Shown here piece by piece: positions 36,158-46,772 of a DNA stretch of 64,000 nt. The DNA comes from Natrinema pallidum DSM 3751 (lineage in GTDB: Archaea > Halobacteriota > Halobacteria > Halobacteriales > Natrialbaceae). The position numbers and the translations under genes were made by a program. Position 1 is the stretch's first letter. Each line of letters begins with the position of its first letter. Below the pieces are notes generated by a model. That model had not been told where the DNA came from and searched no databases. It saw nothing but the letters and a program-made list of their open reading frames with translations. The stretch covers positions 1 through 64,000 of the forward strand of contig NZ_AOII01000037.1 of assembly GCF_000337615.1 (NCBI RefSeq), written 5' to 3'.

Positions 36158-37210
36158 TCAGTAGCCGCGCTGGATCAGGTAATCCGCGAGTTCACAGAGC
36201 AGTTCGCGGGCCTCGTTGTCCGGCACCACCTCGAGGCGATTCTTCCCCTGCTCAACCAGGTCTCGGGCCGTCTCGTTGGCGTAAGAAATCGAGCCCGCCG
36301 CCTCGAGTTCGGCGACCGCGTCGTCGATTTCGGCCTCGGTGACCGCGTCGACGTCGTCGGTATCGACCAGGCCGTCGACGTCGACACCCTGCTCGCGGGC
36401 GTGCACCGTGATCAGCGTCTGCTTGTTCTCGACCAGGTCGCTGCCGCGCTGTTTGCCGAGTTGCTCGCTTGGGACCGTCAGATCGAGGACGTCGTCCTGG
36501 ATCTGGAACGCGCGGCCGATGTCGAGCCCGTAGCCGTAGAGCGCGTCGATCGTCTCGTCGTCGGCTCCCAGCAGGATCGCGGGGAGACACGCCGATGCGG
36601 CGTAGAGGACGGCCGTTTTCTGCTCGACCATCTCCAGGTACTCGTCGGGCGAGACGTCGATGCGTTCCTCGAAGGTGACGTCAAGCGACTGTCCCTCGCA
36701 GATCTTCGTACAGGTCGTCGCGAGAACGTCCAGCGCCTCGACGATGCGATCCGGTTCGGCGCCCGTCTCGAGCATGATCTCGAAGGCCTTCGAGTAGAGC
36801 GTGTCGCCGGCCAGAATCGCCGTCTCGAGGTCGTACTCCTCGTGGACGGCGGGGACCCCGCGCCGGAGGTCGTCGTCGTCCATGATGTCGTCGTGAATCA
36901 GGGTAAACGACTGGATGACCTCGACGCTGACGGCGGCCGCCATCACGTCGATCGGCCCGCTGTCGTCGAGCGCGGGGAACGAACGGTAGCCCGCCGACAG
37001 CGGCTCGACATCTGCCAGCGCTTCCGCCGTCGTCAGGAGGACCGCCGGCCGCAGTCGCTTGCCGCCCGCGTCCAGCAGGTATCGGGACGCCTCGTAGAGC
37101 CGTTCGGGTCGCTTGATCGGCAACTCCTCCGGAATCGCGTCGTTGACCAGCTCGCGGCGCTTCCGGACCGCCTCGAGCACCGCCTCTTCGCGTGCCTCGG
37201 GGCTCGTCAT
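36158..37210 (-). CDS. idsA: Polyprenyl diphosphate synthase (GGPP/FGPP synthase)
   Basis: A 350-aa trans-prenyltransferase that builds C20 or C25 chains for archaeal ether lipids. The first Asp-rich motif is FTLIHDDIMDDDDLRRG (about 117-133) and the second is FQIQDDVLDLT (about 240). GGKRLRPAVLL is the IPP-binding region. It follows the RNase J gene with a 1-nt gap, a conserved haloarchaeal arrangement with gltX downstream. Confidence 0.94.
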   Translation of the reverse strand: MTSPEAREEAVLEAVRKRRELVNDAIPEELPIKRPERLYEASRYLLDAGGKRLRPAVLLTTAEALADVEPLSAGYRSFPALDDSGPIDVMAAAVSVEVIQSFTLIHDDIMDDDDLRRGVPAVHEEYDLETAILAGDTLYSKAFEIMLETGAEPDRIVEALDVLATTCTKICEGQSLDVTFEERIDVSPDEYLEMVEQKTAVLYAASACLPAILLGADDETIDALYGYGLDIGRAFQIQDDVLDLTVPSEQLGKQRGSDLVENKQTLITVHAREQGVDVDGLVDTDDVDAVTEAEIDDAVAELEAAGSISYANETARDLVEQGKNRLEVVPDNEARELLCELADYLIQRGY

Positions 37211-37211
37211 A

Positions 37212-38564
37212 TCAGTCGACTAGCTGGATGAGGTTCCCGTTGCGCGTGACGTGAAGGTCTCGGCCCATCTTGTACCCCTCGCTCTCACAGAGGTTGACGT
37301 AGCTCGAGTACCCGCTCATGTCCTGGTGGGCCGGAATGATGTGCTGGGGTTGCAGCGCATCGAGCATCTCGTAGTGGCCCTCCTGGTTGAGGTGGCCGGA
37401 GACGTGGATGTCGTCGTAGACGCGCGCGCCCTGCATGCCGAGCAACTTCTCGGCCTGGTAGCGCTGGCCCTCGTTGGTCGGCTCCGGAATGACTCGCGCG
37501 GAGAAGACGACCTTGTCGCCGTCGTCCAGTTCGTACGGCGTCTCGCCGCGGGCCATCCGGGTGAGCATCGCGCGGGGCTCGCCCTGGTGGCCGGTGACGA
37601 TCGGCAGGTAGTTCTCCTTGCCCTCGTTCATGATCCGCTTGAACGTCCGATCGACGGACTTGCGGTGGCCGAACATCCCCAGGTCCGAGGGGAAGTCGAC
37701 GAAGTCCAGTCGCTCCGCAGTGCCGGAGTATTTCTCCATCGACCGCCCCAGCAGGACCGGCTGCCGGCCGATATCGTCGGCGAACTCGACGAGCGACTTG
37801 ACGCGGGCGATGTGACTCGAGAAGGTCGTGGCGACGATACCGCCGTCGTAGTCCTCGATGCTGTAGAGGACGTCGCGGAGGTGTTCACGGGCGACCTTCT
37901 CGGAGGGCGTACGCCCTTTCTTGTTCGCGTTCGTACAGTCCTCGATGTAACAGAGGACGCCGTTGCCCTCGCGACCGATCTCGCGGAACCGCTCCATGTC
38001 GATCGGATCGCCGATGACGGGCGTGTGGTCCATCCGTTTGTCGAGCCCGTAGACGACCGCGCCTTCGGGGGTGTGGAGAACGGGGTTGATCGCGTCGATG
38101 ATCGAGTGCGTGACGTTGACGAACTCGAGGTCGACTGCGCCGGAGTCGCCGATCGACATCGTCTCGCCGGCCTCCATCTTGACGAGGTCGTTCTCGACGC
38201 CGAACTTCTGCTCGCCCTCGATCTGCTGTTTGACGAGTTCGATCGTAAACGGCGTCGCGACGACCGGCGCGTCGTAGCGGTGCGCCAACTTCGAGATGGC
38301 ACCGATGTGGTCCAGGTGACCGTGGGTCGGCACGATGGCCTTGACGTCGCCCTCGAGGTCGCTCATGACCCGGTCGTCCGGGATGGCTCCCATATCGATC
38401 AGGTCGAGGCTGTGCATCCGCTCGGTTTCGACGTTGTCGTGGATCAGGACCTGCGAGAGGTTCAGACCCATGTCGAAGATGACGACGTCGTCGCCGGCAC
38501 GAACGGCAGTCATCTGCCGTCCGACTTCTTCGTAGCCGCCAATGGTTGCGATTTCGATTTCCAT
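37212..38564 (-). CDS. rnj: Archaeal RNase J
   Basis: A 450-aa metallo-beta-lactamase/beta-CASP ribonuclease. [17 protein letters not shown] is the HxHxDH motif, [14 protein letters not shown] motif III, and [17 protein letters not shown] and [29 protein letters not shown] are the beta-CASP and final His motifs. It degrades RNA 5' to 3' and shapes mRNA decay and rRNA ends. The ATG at 38564 gives the [15 protein letters not shown] family start. The leader region carries a perfect 18-bp inverted repeat. Confidence 0.93.
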
Positions 38565-38929
38565 GATTCGTAGCACTGAAAGCCGCTGCGTGGACTCTCA
38601 TCGAAACGGTCCGCGGACGCCTAGTCGTACGGCCCCGGCGTCTTGCAGCGCGTCGGCCATCCCGCTATGCGTTCGGTACGACGGCGGTCCCGTCTTCGAT
38701 AGCTTGCGACATCGCAAGCCCCGAACGCACTTGCCCGCGGGTTTCGCTAGTGCCCTGTACACGCCCGGGTGTTAAAAACGCAGTGGGTTGGATCGTCGGC
38801 CGAGACACCGGCCGTCTCGGCGGTTTCCGGCCGTTTGGACGCCGATCGGCGACCGCTCTCTGACACCGCAATTCATTTGCCGGTTGCCCCGAAACGGGTG
38901 TCAATAACGATGCTTTCGGAGGGACCGTC
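38565..38929. other. 365-nt divergent region between RNase J and trkA
   Basis: It holds a TATA candidate for the RNase J side (TTTTTAAC on the minus strand, near 38768-38778), which would give a leader of about 180 nt, and a perfect inverted repeat GCTTGCGA-CA-TCGCAAGC at 38702-38719 inside that leader. A GGAGGG lies 8-12 nt before the trkA GTG. No convincing gene; short frames are 15-25 codons. Confidence 0.55.
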
Positions 38930-40261
38930 GTGTACGTAATTATCGTCGGTGCTGGCGAGGTCGGCCGTTCGATCGCCGCGAACCTCGAGGGAGCCCACGA
39001 CGTGGTCGTGGTCGACCGCGACGCCGACGTAGTCGAGGAACTCACCTACTCGCTCGATGTGCTTACGATTCACGGCGACGGAACCGATCTCGACACCCTG
39101 CGGGAAGCCGCCCTCGAGCAGGCGGACCTGGTGATCGCCTGTACGGACAACGACGAGACCAACGCGGTCGTCTGTGGCGCGGCAAAGGCCGCCACAAACG
39201 CGTTCACCGTCGCACGGGTCCGCCGACGGACGCTGCTCGAGACGTGGCAGGAATCACAGGGGGCGTTCGGCGTCGACTTCATGGTCTGTACCGATCTGCT
39301 GACCGCGCGAACGATCTTCCGGATCTCCGGACTGCCGAGCGCACACGACGTCGATACGTTCGCGAGCGGGCTCATCCGCATGGCCGAGTTCGATATTCCG
39401 GCGGCCAGCCCGCTCGCGGACCGAACCGTCAGTGAGGCTGACTGTTACGATTCGCTCACCTTCGCCGCGATCTTCCGGGACGACGAAATGGTCGTCACCC
39501 GGGGCGACACTGTCATCCGGGGTGGCGATCGGGTCGTCGTCATCGGGAGCCCGGACTCGATCAACGACTTCGCCGACGAGGTCGCGACGATGCCCGAGGA
39601 GGCCGAAGAGGTCGTCATCGTCGGTGCCAGCGAGATCGGGTTCCAGACCGCCCGCGAGTTCGAGGATCACGGCTTCCGCCCGCGTTTGATCGAGCGGGAC
39701 CCCGACCGGGCCCGCGAGGTTGCCGAAGCGCTGCCGAACACGATGGTCATGGAGAGCGACGCGACCAACGCCGAGTTCCTCGCCCGCGAACACGTCGGCG
39801 AGGCCGATGTCGTGATCGCCGCCCTCGACAGCGACGAGAAGAACCTGCTCGTTTCCCTGCTTGCCGACCGGATCGGCGTCGACCGCACCGTTGCGATCAT
39901 CGAAACGCCCGAGTACGCCGACCTCTTCGAGACCGTCGGCGTCGATGTCGCCGTCAACCCTCGCGAGGAGACCGCCGAGGAGATCATCCGCTTTACCCGG
40001 ACCGACCACACCGAGAAAGTGGCGATGCTCGAGCACGACCGCGCGGAGGTCATCGAAATCGAAGTCGGTCCCGAGAGCGTCCTCGTCGGGCGGGAAATCG
40101 CCGACGCGACCGACGACTTGCCGCCGGGCGTCGTCATCGGTGCGATCTCGCGAGCGGGCGACCACATCACGCCCCGTGGCTCGACGGTCGTCCAGCCCGA
40201 GGACCACGTGATCGTCTTCGTCGATGCGGCCGTCCTCGACGATGTCGTCGACCTCATTTAG
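38930..40261 (+). CDS. trkA: TrkA, cytosolic gating subunit of K+ uptake (double RCK)
   Basis: A 443-aa protein made of two RCK units. Each starts with a Rossmann NAD/ATP site: IIVGAGEVGRSIAANL (residue 3) and VIVGASEIGFQTAREF (about 224), and each ends with a TrkA-C domain. Double TrkA proteins gate TrkH pores in response to nucleotides. It starts with GTG at 38930 behind a GGAGG. It is convergent with the 67-aa/TrkH pair, so it stands in the same locus but is transcribed separately. Confidence 0.93.
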   Translation: MYVIIVGAGEVGRSIAANLEGAHDVVVVDRDADVVEELTYSLDVLTIHGDGTDLDTLREAALEQADLVIACTDNDETNAVVCGAAKAATNAFTVARVRRRTLLETWQESQGAFGVDFMVCTDLLTARTIFRISGLPSAHDVDTFASGLIRMAEFDIPAASPLADRTVSEADCYDSLTFAAIFRDDEMVVTRGDTVIRGGDRVVVIGSPDSINDFADEVATMPEEAEEVVIVGASEIGFQTAREFEDHGFRPRLIERDPDRAREVAEALPNTMVMESDATNAEFLAREHVGEADVVIAALDSDEKNLLVSLLADRIGVDRTVAIIETPEYADLFETVGVDVAVNPREETAEEIIRFTRTDHTEKVAMLEHDRAEVIEIEVGPESVLVGREIADATDDLPPGVVIGAISRAGDHITPRGSTVVQPEDHVIVFVDAAVLDDVVDLI

Positions 40262-40312
40262 GCCGAGACGGCCGGTCGCTGCTGTCGCGTTGGGCCGAGT
40301 GGAACCGCCCCG

Positions 40313-40516
40313 TCAGTTACTGATGCCGCGATAGCCGACGTACGCGACGAAAAACAGGACGTACGCGATCGCGATACCGGTCGTGACGGTTGACCGGCCG
40401 ACGATGGCGATACCCGCGATGAGAACCGGCCCGATGAGCAAGAGCGAATCGAAGACCCGGTCGTTGGCACCCGATTCGAACACTTCTTCGACGATCGGGA
40501 GTTCGCTCAGCTTCAT
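40313..40516 (-). CDS. 67-aa two-helix membrane microprotein coupled to trkH
   Basis: A soluble amphipathic N-terminus (MKLSELPIVEEVFESGANDR) is followed by two hydrophobic segments at about 22-41 and 46-62 that make a helical hairpin. The ATG overlaps the trkH stop by 4 nt (ATGA), so it is made with the pore at a matched ratio. No known domain. It is a candidate small subunit or assembly factor of this TrkH. The coding call rests on coupling and amphipathic design. Confidence 0.75.
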   Translation of the reverse strand: MKLSELPIVEEVFESGANDRVFDSLLLIGPVLIAGIAIVGRSTVTTGIAIAYVLFFVAYVGYRGISN

Positions 40517-42063
40517 TGATAGATCCCTCCGCGGCGGAAGACCGCACGTAACGTAACCAACACCGGAATGATCTCGAGGCGGCCGATCCACATGTTGAAC
40601 AGGAACATGAGTTTGCCCAGCGTCGGCAGCGACTCGGGGCCGGTGATCCCTGCGGAGAGGCCGACGTTGCCCTGTGCGCTCGCGACCTCGAAGATGACGT
40701 TCTCGAGCGTGTATTCGCCCTGCGGGAGGATCATGAGGAGGACGAAGATCCCGATCGCGAGGAAGGCCCCCCACAGCATCGTGATGATCGCCGCTTCCTC
40801 GAACTCCTGACGGATCTCCCGTTCGTTGAGACGGCGACCGTTGATGTTCAGCCGCCGGACGGCCGTCTCGGGGTAGAAGACGTCCGAGATGCGATGCCGA
40901 ACGCCTTTCAAGAGCGTAAGCGCCCGAATCAGTTTAATTCCGCCGACCGTCGACCCGGCCGCGCCACCGATGACCATGCCGAAGGTAACGGTGAGTTGGG
41001 CCTGGGCCGACCACCGTCCCAGCGCGACGTTGGTCGTGTCGACAGCGGTCTGGAAGCCGGCACAGGTCGCCGCCGAGACGAACTGGAACGAACCGTATCG
41101 GAACGCGGTAAACAGCGAGTCGTACGTGTCGCCGACGTAGACGAGCGTGGTCAGCACGAACGTTCCGAGGCTCATGTAGATGAACACCCACCGAGTCTGC
41201 AAGTCCGCATAGAGGTTCCGCAGGTCGCCCTGTAGGATGAGATAGTGGACCGGGAACGCGATGCTACCCAACAGCATGATCGGGAGGAGCGCGAAGTCGA
41301 TGGCGGCGCTGTCGTAGGTCGCGATCGAGTTATCCGTAATCGAGAACCCGCCGGTCGAGAGCCCCGTCATGGCGTGATTGATCGCCCCCCAGAGCGGCAT
41401 GCCGACGATCCAGAGGAGGAGGATCGAGACGAACGTAAAGAGGATGAAGATCCACCAGATGGTCTGGACCGTCGAGACGATACTCGGATGGATGCGCTCC
41501 GAGCGGGCCTCGCTCTTGTAGAGGGTCAGCGAGCCACTCCCGGGGCGTGCCAGAATCGCCGTCGTGAGGACGATCACGCCCACGCCGCCGGTCCACTCGA
41601 TGAACGAGCGCCACCACTGGAGGGTCCGCGGCAGGACTTCCTCGTTGTCCGTCATCGTCAGCCCGGTGCCGGTAAAGCCGCTCATGCTCTCGAACAGCGC
41701 GTTGATCGGCTGTGTAAACGCTGCGAGCGTCGACGTCTGCGACGGATCGCCGAGGATCGGCGGCGCGAGTTCGACCGTCCACGCGATGAGAAAGAACGGC
41801 AGCGAGCCGAAAATCGCGACGCAGAACCATCCCAGCGCGGCGATGATCATCCCGTGGAGTTTGCCGGGTTTGGCCGCCTCCCGAAACCGCGAGGTCAGGA
41901 GACGACCGATCGCAAACGGGAGCACTCCGGAGACGACCAGGGCCGGAATCGCGTAGTACTCCCCCCAGATAAGCGGGATGAGGACGGAGACGAACAGGAG
42001 CCCGGCCAGCGCCTGAAACATGCGCCCCAGGTCCCGCCCGATCGTTTTCGTCGCCTCGTTCAT
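40513..42063 (-). CDS. trkH: TrkH-family potassium uptake pore
   Basis: A 516-aa membrane protein with four M1-P-M2 repeats. The four selectivity-filter loops are seen as MSGFTGTGLTM, GLSTGGFSITD, ATCAGFQTAV and AQGNVGLSAGI; each has the single conserved glycine of Trk/Ktr channels. It works with TrkA to bring K+ into the cell, central for a salt-in osmotic strategy. It lies 112 nt after the 228-aa trkA gene on the same strand, so a trkA-trkH-microprotein operon is likely. Confidence 0.94.
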   Translation of the reverse strand: MNEATKTIGRDLGRMFQALAGLLFVSVLIPLIWGEYYAIPALVVSGVLPFAIGRLLTSRFREAAKPGKLHGMIIAALGWFCVAIFGSLPFFLIAWTVELAPPILGDPSQTSTLAAFTQPINALFESMSGFTGTGLTMTDNEEVLPRTLQWWRSFIEWTGGVGVIVLTTAILARPGSGSLTLYKSEARSERIHPSIVSTVQTIWWIFILFTFVSILLLWIVGMPLWGAINHAMTGLSTGGFSITDNSIATYDSAAIDFALLPIMLLGSIAFPVHYLILQGDLRNLYADLQTRWVFIYMSLGTFVLTTLVYVGDTYDSLFTAFRYGSFQFVSAATCAGFQTAVDTTNVALGRWSAQAQLTVTFGMVIGGAAGSTVGGIKLIRALTLLKGVRHRISDVFYPETAVRRLNINGRRLNEREIRQEFEEAAIITMLWGAFLAIGIFVLLMILPQGEYTLENVIFEVASAQGNVGLSAGITGPESLPTLGKLMFLFNMWIGRLEIIPVLVTLRAVFRRGGIYQ

Positions 42064-42175
42064 TCGTCACCCTCCGTCCGAGACGCGTCCAGGGACATTT
42101 CGACGGACCGATCCCGTACTCGAGACGGAATACCCGACGGCGACCCTCGGAGCCGCGCTCCACGTCGTCCGATCA

Positions 42176-42862
42176 TCATTGAACCCGGTCTTCCGAGTGG
42201 CCGAACACGTCCGTGAGCTTGGGTTCCGCTCCGAACGCCGAATAGACGGTGAGAAGATCGTCGGCCTCGATCGTCGTGTTCCCGCGCGGCGTGATCGGGG
42301 GGTCCTCCCCTTCGCGCTCGATCGCGACGATGAGGACGTCCTCGGGGAGGAGTCCTTCCTCGGCGGCCTCCGTGAGCGATTTCCCGTCGATCGGTGCGCC
42401 TTCAGTGACCACGATTTCGAACACCTCCGCCGTCTCCCCGATTCGCATGTAGTCGACGATCGCGGGGCGGGCGACCGCTCGATAGAGGTATTCGGCGATG
42501 AGTTCCTGCGGGTTTTCCATCGTGTTGACGCCGATCTGGCGAAACACGTTCATGTGTTCCGGGTCGTGGACAACCGACACGATGTTGGGGACCTCGTGTT
42601 CTTGGGCGAGCAGACAGACCATGATATTGGTCGCGTCACGGTCGGTCGTGCTGATCATCGCATCGGCGGTCTCGATTCCGGCGTCCAGCAGCGCATCGTG
42701 AGCCGTCGCATCGTCGTTGAGTACTAGACAGTCGTATTCACCGGCAACTCGGTCCGCCCGCTCGGGGTCGTTCTCGATGACGACGACTTCGTTTCCCGAC
42801 CGGGTTGCGATATCGATGAGCGGCATTCCGATATCGCCCGCACCGACGATGACGATATACAT
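42176..42862 (-). CDS. trkA: TrkA-like K+ regulator, single RCK
   Basis: A 228-aa protein: Rossmann RCK-N (IVIVGAGDIGMPLIDIA; acidic ENDPERAD) followed by a TrkA-C domain (VFEIVVTEGAPIDGKSL). It has half the length of the other TrkA at 38930 and is placed directly upstream of trkH on the same strand, so it is the likely gating partner of that pore. A TATA box (AAATATAT, 42890-42898) lies about 30 nt before its ATG. Confidence 0.92.
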   Translation of the reverse strand: MYIVIVGAGDIGMPLIDIATRSGNEVVVIENDPERADRVAGEYDCLVLNDDATAHDALLDAGIETADAMISTTDRDATNIMVCLLAQEHEVPNIVSVVHDPEHMNVFRQIGVNTMENPQELIAEYLYRAVARPAIVDYMRIGETAEVFEIVVTEGAPIDGKSLTEAAEEGLLPEDVLIVAIEREGEDPPITPRGNTTIEADDLLTVYSAFGAEPKLTDVFGHSEDRVQ

Positions 42863-42889
42863 TGCGTCGGTGTTGCTGCGTGATCGTTG

Positions 42890-42898
42890 AAAATATAT
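42890..42898 (-). promoter_or_regulatory. TATA box of the trkA-trkH unit
   Basis: AAAATATAT read on the + strand (ATATATTTT on the transcribed strand), about 30 nt before the 228-aa trkA ATG. It probably drives trkA, trkH and the 67-aa microprotein. Confidence 0.55.
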
Positions 42899-43002
42899 CG
42901 TTTTAGTGATCTCAACCACGCCGTCCCGACTCGAGCAGTCACCGGCGAGAGCCCGCCCTCGAGCGACCGTGACGGACGACGATCCGCGCTATCGCGACGG
43001 AC

Positions 43003-43248
43003 TCACTTCCAGGGTCGGTTCCGTTGCTGTTGCCGTCTCGCTCGTTCTTTGGACTCGCCGAGGATTCGTTCGATCGCCCAGCCGGCCCACAGGAAAACGA
43101 CCGTCATGAAGACGGCCGTCTCGAGCCGGACGATCGACCCGTACCGGACGGCGAGGACGAGGGCCATGATCGCCACTGCGGCGGCAACGACGCCGAAGAC
43201 GTCGTAAAACGAGTGCGGGTGGCGAACGCTTGGTAATCGAACGCTCAT
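43003..43248 (-). CDS. 81-aa two-helix membrane microprotein
   Basis: Two hydrophobic segments (about 19-36 and 42-60) are followed by a basic tail ERARRQQQRNRPWK. A TATA box TATATA (43271-43277) sits exactly 26 nt before its ATG, a leaderless start, which supports real expression. It lies between the 228-aa trkA and the second trkH, divergent from the latter. No known family; it may be a second Trk-associated small protein. Confidence 0.7.
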   Translation of the reverse strand: MSVRLPSVRHPHSFYDVFGVVAAAVAIMALVLAVRYGSIVRLETAVFMTVVFLWAGWAIERILGESKERARRQQQRNRPWK

Positions 43249-43461
43249 AGCGCATGCTACGCACGGTTCGTATATAGAACCTCGTCTCGGGGCCGGGGAG
43301 CGACGGGTGTGACGTGACCTCGGCCGGACCCGTGACACGTTTCCAGTCGCCCTATGACCGAGACGCCGACGATGGAGGCTCGCTTACGATGGATTAATAC
43401 GACTTACACCAAATGCCGTTAATACCGTGTCTAGACGCAGCCCTTTCAGCGGGGTGTTTCT

Positions 43462-45006
43462 ATGAGGATCCGCGCCGACTGGCGCGCCAGTTTCGCGCTC
43501 GTCGGAACCGTACTCAAGTACCTCTCCGTCCCGCTCGTGATCCCTCTCGTCGTGGCGCTCATCTATACCGAACCCGTGTTTCCGTTCCTCGCGACGATCG
43601 CGATCACGGTCGCCGTCGGTCACGGCCTCGAGCAGCTGTGCCCGGACCCGGACTTGCAGGTCCGGGAGGCCATGCTCTTCGTCGCCATATCGTGGTTAGC
43701 CGTCGCGATGGTCGGTGCAGTCCCCTACGTGATCGCGGGCTGGGGGACGGAATCGACGCTCGCCCATCCCGTCAACGCCCTGTTCGAGTCGATGTCCGGG
43801 TTCACCACGACCGGGGCGACGGTCCTCGGCAAGATCTCAGTTGAGGATCACTCACACGCGATCATGATGTGGCGACAGCTCACCCAGTGGCTCGGTGGGA
43901 TGGGGATCATCGTGTTGATGGTCGCGATCCTCCCCGAGCTGGCGGTCAGCGGTGCACAACTCGTCGAGTCGGAAGCGCCGGGGCCGCAGTTACAGAAACT
44001 CACGCCGCGAATCGCCGAGACGGCACGTATCCTCTGGCTCGTCTACTTCGCGTTCACTGTTCTCTACATCGCCATTCTCTACGGACTCCACCAGGCGGGG
44101 ATGGCTGACAACATGACGCTCTACAATTCCATCGCTCATGGATTCACCACCCTTCCGACGGGCGGGTTTTCGCCGGAGGCCGACAGCGTCGCGAAATTCT
44201 CCGCGATCGTCCAGTGGACTGCCATCCCGTTCATGATCATCGCCGGGACCAACTTCGCTCTGTTCTGGCACGTCTTCAGCGGCGATGGCCATCGCTTCGT
44301 TCGCAACTCCGAGTTTCGGGCTTATATCGGCGCGATTGCCGGTTTAACCGTCTTGCTCGCAGGCATCCTCTATACTGGTGCCGCACCGCCACTCGGGGAC
44401 CTCGGCGGCGTGACGGCGGGTGTGTTCGAGAACTCGTTACGACAGAGCGCCTTCCAGATCGTGTCGCTGTTGACCTCGACCGGCTACGCGACCAGCGATT
44501 TCGCCGACTGGAGCTCGACGGGCCAAATCGTGCTCCTCTTTGCAATGCTCGTCGGCGGCTGTGCCGGCTCGACCGGTGGTGGTGTCAAGGTCGTCCGATG
44601 GCTGATCGTGTTCAAAGTGTTGCGCCGGGAGCTGTTTACGGCCTCCCATCCCGAGGTCGTCCGGCCGATTCGACTCGGTGGAAACATCGTCGACGAAGAC
44701 GCCATTCGTGGCGTTCTCGGGTTCTCGTTCATGTACCTGGTTATCTTTGCCCTCGCGACGCTGGTTATCGCACTGGATGTCAGCCGCGTCGCCGCCATCG
44801 AGGAGTTCACCGCACTCGAGGCCTTCAGTGCCAGTCTCGCGACCATCGGGAACATCGGCCCCGGATTCGGGTTCCTCGGTCCCTTCGGCAATTACAACGA
44901 TTTCCCGATCCCGTCGAAACTCCTGATGGTCTTCCTGATGTGGATCGGCCGCCTCGAGATCATTCCCGTCCTCGTCATGTTCACCGGCGGCTTCTGGACC
45001 CGCTGA
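43462..45006 (+). CDS. trkH: Second TrkH-family potassium uptake pore
   Basis: A 514-aa membrane protein with four filter loops: MSGFTTTGATV, HGFTTLPTGGFS, TSTGYATSDF and TIGNIGPGFG. Its sequence differs widely from the 516-aa TrkH, so this is an old paralogue and not a recent copy. It is divergent from the 81-aa microprotein gene. Two TTAATAC motifs at 43394-43400 and 43419-43425 precede the ATG and may be TATA elements. It has no adjacent trkA on its strand. Confidence 0.93.
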   Translation: MRIRADWRASFALVGTVLKYLSVPLVIPLVVALIYTEPVFPFLATIAITVAVGHGLEQLCPDPDLQVREAMLFVAISWLAVAMVGAVPYVIAGWGTESTLAHPVNALFESMSGFTTTGATVLGKISVEDHSHAIMMWRQLTQWLGGMGIIVLMVAILPELAVSGAQLVESEAPGPQLQKLTPRIAETARILWLVYFAFTVLYIAILYGLHQAGMADNMTLYNSIAHGFTTLPTGGFSPEADSVAKFSAIVQWTAIPFMIIAGTNFALFWHVFSGDGHRFVRNSEFRAYIGAIAGLTVLLAGILYTGAAPPLGDLGGVTAGVFENSLRQSAFQIVSLLTSTGYATSDFADWSSTGQIVLLFAMLVGGCAGSTGGGVKVVRWLIVFKVLRRELFTASHPEVVRPIRLGGNIVDEDAIRGVLGFSFMYLVIFALATLVIALDVSRVAAIEEFTALEAFSASLATIGNIGPGFGFLGPFGNYNDFPIPSKLLMVFLMWIGRLEIIPVLVMFTGGFWTR

Positions 45007-45048
45007 AAACGCCTCGCCGTTTCTTCGCCCGATGCTCCGCTCCCGCGC

Positions 45049-45789
45049 TCAGTCGATCGTCGTCCCCGGGTTCTCGCCGTCGAGGAACGACGCGAGTGAC
45101 GCGAGATCGAAGACCGACGCCGCGGCCTCGAGATCGAGCAGCGTCCGCACCTTGCCGGCCATTCCGCCGGTTACGTCGGTCGCCTCGCTGGCTCCGAGCA
45201 CGTCGGCGACCGTCTCGAAGTCGTCGATCCGGTCGATAACCGCGTCCTCGTCGTCCAGTACGCCGGGCACCGTCGAGCAGAGCCCGACCCGATCGGCGTC
45301 GAGGGTGCGGGCGAGCGCCGCGACGAGTTCGTCGCCGCTGACGACGGTCGCGCCCGCGCCGGCGTGGGCGATCACGTCGCCGTGGAGGACGGGGACGAAC
45401 CCCTCCGCGAGCATCGTTTCGACCTGTCCGGTCGGCAGGTCGAGGGTTCCGTCGCCGTCGCGGTGGGCCGTCGAAAAGGGGTGAACCGGCACCGCCTGCA
45501 CGTCGCGCTCGAGCAGTCGCCCCAAAACGAACCGGTTCAACGTCGTCATCGCACCGTGGATGTCGAGCGCCGCGTTCGCGTCGCGGGTCCCCTCGGTCGT
45601 GGTGACGCCGTGTTCGCTGGCGTTGTGATGGCCGAAGCTCCCGCCGCCGTGGACGACGACGAGGTCCGCGCCGCCGTCCGCTCGTGCCGCCGCGATCGCG
45701 TCGGCCGCGCGCTCGAGGGCTTCCCCGTCGAGGGTCTCCGCACGATCCTTTTCCGTGATGACGCTGCCGCCGAGTTTCAGCACGATCAT
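45049..45789 (-). CDS. ipk: Isopentenyl phosphate kinase
   Basis: A 246-aa amino-acid-kinase-fold enzyme that turns isopentenyl phosphate into IPP, the last step of the archaeal mevalonate pathway. VLKLGGSVITEK is the ATP-binding start. VVHGGGSFGHHNASEHG holds the catalytic histidine that marks IPK within the fold. TDVTGGMAGKVRTLL is near the C-terminus. Its ATG overlaps the mevalonate kinase stop by 4 nt. Confidence 0.95.
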   Translation of the reverse strand: MIVLKLGGSVITEKDRAETLDGEALERAADAIAAARADGGADLVVVHGGGSFGHHNASEHGVTTTEGTRDANAALDIHGAMTTLNRFVLGRLLERDVQAVPVHPFSTAHRDGDGTLDLPTGQVETMLAEGFVPVLHGDVIAHAGAGATVVSGDELVAALARTLDADRVGLCSTVPGVLDDEDAVIDRIDDFETVADVLGASEATDVTGGMAGKVRTLLDLEAAASVFDLASLASFLDGENPGTTID

Positions 45790-46772
45790 TCGAGCCGTTT
45801 CACCCCGCTGTCGGCGAGTTCCGCGCGGAAGGCGTCTTCACAGCCCGGGGTAAAGGAGAGAGCCGTCTCGGTCTCCGGCGTCGGGTCCAACGCGGCGATA
45901 CAGCCGCCCCCGCCGGCCCCAATGAGCTTCGCGCCGTACGCGCCCGCGTCGCGGGCCGCCCAGACCATCGTGTCCAGGGAGCGCGAGGAGACGCCCAGCG
46001 CCGATAGCAGCCCGTGATTGAAGTTCATCAGCCGGCCGAGTTCCTCGAGATCGCCGTCGGCAAGCGCCGCCTCGCCGTTACGCACGACATCACCGATCGC
46101 AGCGATCGTGTCGGCAGCGAACTCGTACTCGTCGCGCAGGGATCGGACCCCCGCCACTAGTTGCCCAGTATCGCCCGCACCGCCGTCGAACCCGATCACG
46201 ATCGGCAGGTCCGGTGCCGCGAGCGAGCGACAGTCGTCGCCCTCGACGCGGACCGCGCCGCCGGTCGCCGAACAGAACGTGTCCGCACGCGAGGCCTGCC
46301 CGTTCTGGACCTGGTACTCCGTTCGATAGGCTCGCTCGGCGAGTTCGTCGGTCTCGAGGGTGACGCCGAGTTCGCGGGTGGCGGCGTCGATAGCCGCCAC
46401 GACGACCGCGGCCGACGACCCGAGTCCCGCACCCAGGGGGATGTCGCTCTCGATGGTCACGTCGAACCCGACCTCGTCGTTTCCGGTGACATCCCGGACC
46501 TGCTCGATCGCGCCGTCGACGTACCCCATCGCGGCGTCGAGCAGCGATTCCGAGACATCGATGTCCGGCCCCTCGTCGGCCGACCCGTCGTACTCGACCG
46601 TGAACCCGTCCAGACTGAGATCTTCGGCGTTGACTCGGAGTTTCCCGTCGTCGCGTCGCTGTACGCCGACCCGCGCCCGCTGTTCGATCGCACACAGGAC
46701 CGTCGGCTCGCCGTAGACCACCGCGTGCTCCCCGAGTAGATACACTTTGCCGGGAGCGCTCGAAAGTGTCAT
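45786..46772 (-). CDS. mvk: Mevalonate kinase
   Basis: A 328-aa GHMP kinase that phosphorylates mevalonate. SSAPGKVYLLGEHAVVYGEP is the N-terminal substrate motif, IPLGAGLGSSAAVVVAAI the ATP loop and GAYGAKLIGAGGGGCIAAL the C-terminal motif. It is co-translated with IPK (ATGA overlap), so two steps of isoprenoid synthesis are made together. The gene is divergent from thiR. Confidence 0.95.
   Translation of the reverse strand: MTLSSAPGKVYLLGEHAVVYGEPTVLCAIEQRARVGVQRRDDGKLRVNAEDLSLDGFTVEYDGSADEGPDIDVSESLLDAAMGYVDGAIEQVRDVTGNDEVGFDVTIESDIPLGAGLGSSAAVVVAAIDAATRELGVTLETDELAERAYRTEYQVQNGQASRADTFCSATGGAVRVEGDDCRSLAAPDLPIVIGFDGGAGDTGQLVAGVRSLRDEYEFAADTIAAIGDVVRNGEAALADGDLEELGRLMNFNHGLLSALGVSSRSLDTMVWAARDAGAYGAKLIGAGGGGCIAALDPTPETETALSFTPGCEDAFRAELADSGVKRLE

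Follow-up and report, generated by a model that had tools for sequence, protein, structure and literature searches.

In most accounts a Trk channel consists of TrkH and TrkA, and K+ uptake underlies salt tolerance in haloarchaea. A 64,000 nt stretch of the 3.9 Mb genome of Natrinema pallidum DSM 3751 (RefSeq assembly GCF_000337615.1, contig NZ_AOII01000037.1, positions 1 to 64,000; hereafter the window) includes a locus in which genes for two TrkH and two TrkA proteins are interspersed with two small genes, encoding proteins of 67 and 81 aa that are referred to here as SMP67 and SMP81. The question raised by this locus is whether either small protein belongs to a transporter. We consider, at a probability of roughly 0.68 and on the basis of sequence comparisons, that SMP67 serves one pore, TrkH1, as a dedicated accessory subunit, and that SMP81 is a looser partner linked to the other, TrkH2.

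A first-pass annotation of the window had reported two TrkA and two TrkH paralogues with the 67- and 81-aa proteins embedded among them, and all six genes were confirmed at the expected coordinates, with Pfam and NCBIfam domains that agree. The features are:

38930..40261, plus strand: TrkA443, gating protein of 443 aa with two TrkA_N/TrkA_C units (Pfam PF02254 twice and PF02080 twice; NF007034 TrkA)
40313..40516, minus strand: SMP67, predicted two-helix membrane microprotein of 67 aa (profile A1)
40526..40530, minus strand: GGAGG, Shine-Dalgarno-like, within the end of trkH1 and 9 nt ahead of the SMP67 ATG
40513..42063, minus strand: TrkH1, K+ pore subunit of 516 aa (PF02386, 269 bits)
42176..42862, minus strand: TrkA228, gating protein of 228 aa with a single TrkA_N + TrkA_C unit (Pfam), ATG at 42862
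43003..43248, minus strand: SMP81, predicted two-helix membrane microprotein of 81 aa, divergent from TrkH2 (profile A2)
43271..43276, minus strand: TATATA box, -28 to -23 relative to the SMP81 ATG, putative leaderless-type promoter
43462..45006, plus strand: TrkH2, K+ pore subunit of 514 aa (PF02386, 244 bits)

Hence, trkA228, trkH1 and SMP67 share the minus strand with trkA443 convergent toward them, and trkH2 and SMP81 form a divergent pair. By domain content, TrkH1 and TrkH2 are K+ pores and TrkA443 and TrkA228 gating proteins. The PF02386 (TrkH domain) scores of both pores, which share 31 % identity, are above the cut-off of 27 bits, and in sequence searches TrkH1 matched the TrkH of PDB entries 3pjz and 4j9u (E about 1e-40) and TrkA228 the TrkA chain 4j9u_E (E about 1e-35).

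SMP67 is closely tied to a single TrkH subfamily. It was found in 73 of 293 Halobacteriales genomes by single-sequence search and in 72 by profile search, and all 87 places from both searches (L002, L006-L035 and L066-L120) were inspected in context. At 86 of them the gene immediately upstream of SMP67, in the same orientation, is a TrkH1-type trkH; some of these trkH genes are broken or divergent (e.g. L035, L093, L104, L116 and L120), and the SMP67 match at L116 is weak (17 bits). The reverse counts were made by hand, by comparing the coordinates of two listings. A gap in score from 667 to 613 bits separates the 79 trkH genes whose identity to TrkH1 is 62 % or more from the lower matches listed, and SMP67 directly follows 77 of the 79, compared to 2 of the 71 matches listed below 62 % identity (G241:C14 and G274:C21, which are identical to each other in the TrkH tree). 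On that tree (109 rows, 83 with SMP67 and 26 without), the presence of SMP67 needs only three changes, against a mean of 23.6 when shuffled, with none of 500 shuffles as low; it is a quick tree with long branches, and a single gain of SMP67 is not established by it. SMP67 stays at the 3' end of trkH1 regardless of trkA228, which may precede the pair, follow it or be elsewhere, and at 24 named loci it follows a TrkH1-type gene in Natrinema, Haloferax, Halorussus, Halorubrum, Haladaptatus, Halobellus, Halorhabdus and others, the trkH match being fragmented at two (L195 and L200). No small two-helix ORF was found after the more distant TrkH at 19 of 20 loci, and at the twentieth (L140) a small hydrophobic ORF that is unmatched by the SMP67 profile follows trkH. 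Given so faithful a tie to the pore gene across species, SMP67 is probably an overlooked part of its transporter.

The N. pallidum genome includes a second intact trkA-trkH pair (L002, G000:C44), followed by a diverged SMP67 paralogue that is about 36 % identical. A further TrkH1-like gene in this genome (L144, G000:C113:24500-29500) is broken, with an internal TAG and in several pieces, and is not followed by SMP67. A wider search, of 196 genomes from the phylum, added one more, G336, with an intact trkA228-trkH1-SMP67 (L174, G336:C6). The G336 assembly, an archaeon outside the order, is 1.2 Mb and 78 % complete, and the module may be there through gene transfer or on a misplaced contig.

The junction between the two genes also points to a link. 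The SMP67 ATG overlaps the trkH1 TGA by 4 nt (CAATGA), as the first-pass annotation had it, and in the profile alignment the exact 4 nt ATGA overlap is present in 49 of 83 SMP67 genes. Haloarchaeal 16S RNA ends in an anti-Shine-Dalgarno sequence that matches GGAGG, which occurs among the final 30 nt of trkH in 45/83 genes with SMP67 and 0/27 without, the figures for GGNGG being 68/83 and 3/27 (one locus is counted twice in these figures, L155 repeating L023). The motif is mostly encoded by the conserved Arg-Gly-Gly end of TrkH. As it also occurs in a different trkH reading frame (L082, L084, L086, L088, L089, L094 and L097), selection on the DNA as the SMP67 ribosome-binding site is the simpler reading.

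Both small ORFs are conserved beyond chance, to judge by their substitution patterns. Median pN/pS values of 0.41 for SMP67 (55 Natrinema pairs) and 0.42 for SMP81 (91 Natrinema pairs) indicate conservation as protein, and the two shifted forward frames of the same DNA gave values from 1.1 to 2.2 (equal-length rows only; 36 pairs for SMP67 and 21 for SMP81). Start positions are conserved among the homologues of each, as are residues that include P7, G16, D23, L25-L27, G29, P30, R41, Y52 and F56 in SMP67 and R4, P6, P11, D16, W54, A58 and L63 in SMP81.

Neither could be assigned to a known family. The two proteins from the window had no Pfam or NCBIfam match above cut-off, and 30 members of each family gave weak, scattered matches to Pfam, those of the SMP81 family including MerC (3/30, best E 5e-4) and DUF373 (7/30, best E 0.0012). 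Pfam contains a KdpF model, and it was absent among the Pfam and NCBIfam matches of both families. The possibilities that SMP67 and SMP81 form one family (hhalign probability 0.4 %) or are a duplicated TrkH hairpin (0.1 % and 0.2 % against their own TrkH) were rejected. Against PDB, the SMP67 profile matched only short stretches of HIV-1 protease chains (E 0.047 or worse) and the SMP81 profile two voltage-sensor chains (E 0.17 and 0.21), and these matches were judged to be due to chance; a PDB fold search with the SMP67 model gave no match at E 0.001. None of the ORFs scanned joins either microprotein to TrkH or TrkA. In plasmid records, SMP67 is annotated as a 'hypothetical protein' adjoining a 'TrkH family potassium uptake protein' in five of eight, as a 'hypothetical protein' only in two and not at all in one, and SMP81 is a 'hypothetical protein' in two of four. 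The accessible text of open-access literature on TrkH, haloarchaeal K+ uptake and haloarchaeal small proteins yielded no description of either. Each microprotein, as far as can be read from the sequences, goes with its own pore and the two are mutually unrelated, a point that goes beyond the first-pass annotation.

The two-helix form that had been proposed for both microproteins was recovered in AlphaFold models, which are hairpins with helices at 7-39 and 43-66 in SMP67 (pLDDT 79) and at 11-36 and 39-76 in SMP81 (pLDDT 67, only moderate). In helix 2 of SMP67, conservation is one-sided with a helical period (permutation P 0.0002, 95 distinct rows) and the most conserved positions include T45, A49, Y52, F56, Y59 and Y62; the periodicity of helix 1 is weaker (P 0.047). 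On the TrkH side, 14 positions, including W204, L208, W218 and W33, separate 81 rows with SMP67 from 25 without, when the very divergent SMP67 rows L116 and L119 and all rows no longer than 400 aa are left out, and position W204 is W in 100 % of the former and K in 86 % of the latter. Because the two sets are nearly clades, these positions are at best a possible contact site.

For SMP81, the profile recovered 45 places in 40 of the 293 genomes, and 29 of these have a TrkH2-type trkH no more than 500 nt away. The 23 closest homologues are all beside TrkH2 and divergent from it, and the remaining six have convergent or same-strand layouts. In eight further genomes of the family, 5 of 10 SMP81 places are beside TrkH2. 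When trkH genes with 65 % or more identity to TrkH2 were considered (18 from 66 family genomes and 11 from 11 genus genomes), SMP81 was found to adjoin 27 of the 29. Conservation beside trkH in other species, on which the first-pass annotation had staked its proposal, was thus found for both microproteins, with 86/87 SMP67 beside TrkH1 and SMP81 at 27/29 close TrkH2. SMP81 had also been credited with a leaderless promoter of its own; the TATATA box is present and suits a leaderless haloarchaeal promoter, and a similar box was read by eye near position -28 in 13 of the 14 Natrinema copies (L036-L049), the leaderless character itself being presumed. At one locus (L146; G197:C3, 5994-6188) the pairing is swapped, an SMP81-like gene lying 86 nt 3' of a TrkH1-like gene.

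Natural deletions divide the locus into two parts. In four Natrinema (G055, G179, G211 and G208), SMP67, a close TrkH1 and a TrkA228 at the locus are all missing; TrkA443 remains with TrkH2, as trkA443-SMP81-trkH2 in the first three and as trkA443-trkH2 alone in G208. Therefore, trkA228-trkH1-SMP67 appears to be gained or lost as one unit, while SMP81 travels with TrkH2 and, because G208 retains TrkH2 without it, is not indispensable. The locus would then comprise two adjacent K+ uptake systems, a mobile module (TrkA228-TrkH1-SMP67) and a core pair (TrkA443/TrkH2) with SMP81. Within positions 36158-46772, the Trk cassette is flanked by genes that are all on the minus strand and that we take to be of the isopentenyl phosphate kinase/mevalonate kinase type and the RNase J/GGPP synthase type. 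In G035 (L211) and G012 (L220), the kinases, RNase J and GGPP synthase are together and Trk genes are absent, and hence the isoprenoid gene cluster is probably the older arrangement, later split by the Trk cassette.

The first-pass annotation had presented both microproteins as candidate Trk subunits that tune K+ uptake. Association with Trk is well supported, and the sequence data tie SMP67 to it much more strongly than SMP81; that either is a subunit, or tunes uptake, is what we infer. Translation of SMP67 would be coupled to that of trkH1 at the end of its message, as the overlap and GGAGG suggest, and the protein would insert in the membrane as a helical hairpin. The helix 2 face formed by T45, A49, Y52, F56, Y59 and Y62 would pack on TrkH1, either stabilising the pore dimer or setting its gating by TrkA228, with SMP67 stoichiometric in the complex. 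SMP81, with its own promoter-like site, would probably be a dispensable modulator of TrkH2.

Precedents for such an arrangement are partial. KdpF, a one-helix protein of the KdpFABC pump, is, like SMP67 and SMP81, small, hydrophobic and encoded in a K+ uptake operon. It is described as a peptide of 30 aa that shares a transcript with kdpABC and is presumed to have a stabilising role in the complex (PMC3618439, as far as its accessible text goes), but at about 30 aa and in a pump it differs from two-helix proteins of 67 and 81 aa beside TrkH channels. AcrZ is a small protein that, in the available text of PMC7267776, binds the membrane part of AcrB and alters the transporter; its fold, partner and lineage differ from those of the microproteins, whose binding is only proposed here. 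The Vibrio TrkH/TrkA complex (PDB 4j9u, 3pjz) has the same pore and gating ring as here, but no small subunit was among the matches listed, and neither microprotein profile has a convincing match to any PDB chain. In Thermotoga maritima, the accessible part of PMC4380455 describes TM1088A and TM1088B as two Trk components encoded in one message, the stop codon of one overlapping the start codon of the other. Both are soluble RCK subunits, whereas SMP67 has no RCK domain and resembles a membrane hairpin. A two-subunit TrkA of this type at the N. pallidum locus was rejected, since TrkA228 includes both TrkA_N and TrkA_C and SMP67 neither. The Trk islands of Halorubrum ezzemoulense include a 230-aa TrkA that has been likened to the two-subunit Thermotoga TrkA, and the accessible text of that report makes no mention of a small protein in haloarchaeal Trk islands (PMC11078007).

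Several observations weigh against the roles proposed here. In G186 (L071; G186:C4), SMP67 lies about 160 nt 5' of its trkH, the TrkH1 gene of G026 (L126, 64 % identity) has no SMP67, and many TrkH, close cousins included, occur without it. For SMP81, 15 of 45 homologues, several of them weak matches, are away from trkH, TrkH2 lacks an adjacent SMP81 in G208 (L205) and at one TrkH2 of G273 (L175), and helix conservation is not significantly periodic (P 0.35 and 0.10). The SMP81 homologues away from trkH and the TrkH2 of G208, together with the weak and scattered Pfam similarities, are what would be expected if SMP81 were a general two-helix membrane protein that is unrelated to Trk and merely shares an intergenic region with trkH2. 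That is a substantial possibility, which we nevertheless regard as the less probable, as SMP81 occurs beside TrkH2 in divergent, convergent and same-strand layouts, more variety than one fixed promoter in common would account for, and 27 of the 29 close TrkH2 genes have it. At the other extreme, long wrong-strand open frames are common in this GC-rich region, but the notion that the small ORFs are spurious is refuted in practice by frame-specific purifying selection, conserved starts and residues conserved over many genera.

The main rival for SMP67 is that it assists insertion, folding or turnover of TrkH1 as an assembly or stability factor outside the working transporter. The translational overlap would deliver it to nascent TrkH1, and the same genetic traces would be expected. 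However, a chaperone could serve every TrkH, yet SMP67 is limited to one subfamily, the cousins doing without, and the conserved helix face fits lasting packing, without proving it; hence, we consider this role unlikely, though deserving of attention. It is more improbable still that the target of SMP67 is the TrkA228 ring, or that it is a sensor of membrane or ion state, instead of binding the pore: TrkA228 is usually in the same cluster, but its position varies by lineage while SMP67 is fixed at the trkH1 3' end, and cousin TrkH genes adjoin a TrkA228-type gene yet have no SMP67.

If SMP67 is indeed an auxiliary membrane subunit of one TrkH subfamily, this would change how Trk gating is studied, with TrkH cousins that have or lack SMP67 providing a clean natural contrast, and a widespread haloarchaeal 'hypothetical protein' would gain a function where K+ uptake matters. 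Much more tentatively, and with some doubt, an entire archaeal Trk subfamily might be a three-part machine of pore, gating ring and obligate two-helix auxiliary subunit. Haloarchaea would then have recruited unrelated proteins to this role on two or more occasions, giving each pore its own, as a means of setting K+ flux in cells that have to balance molar salt.

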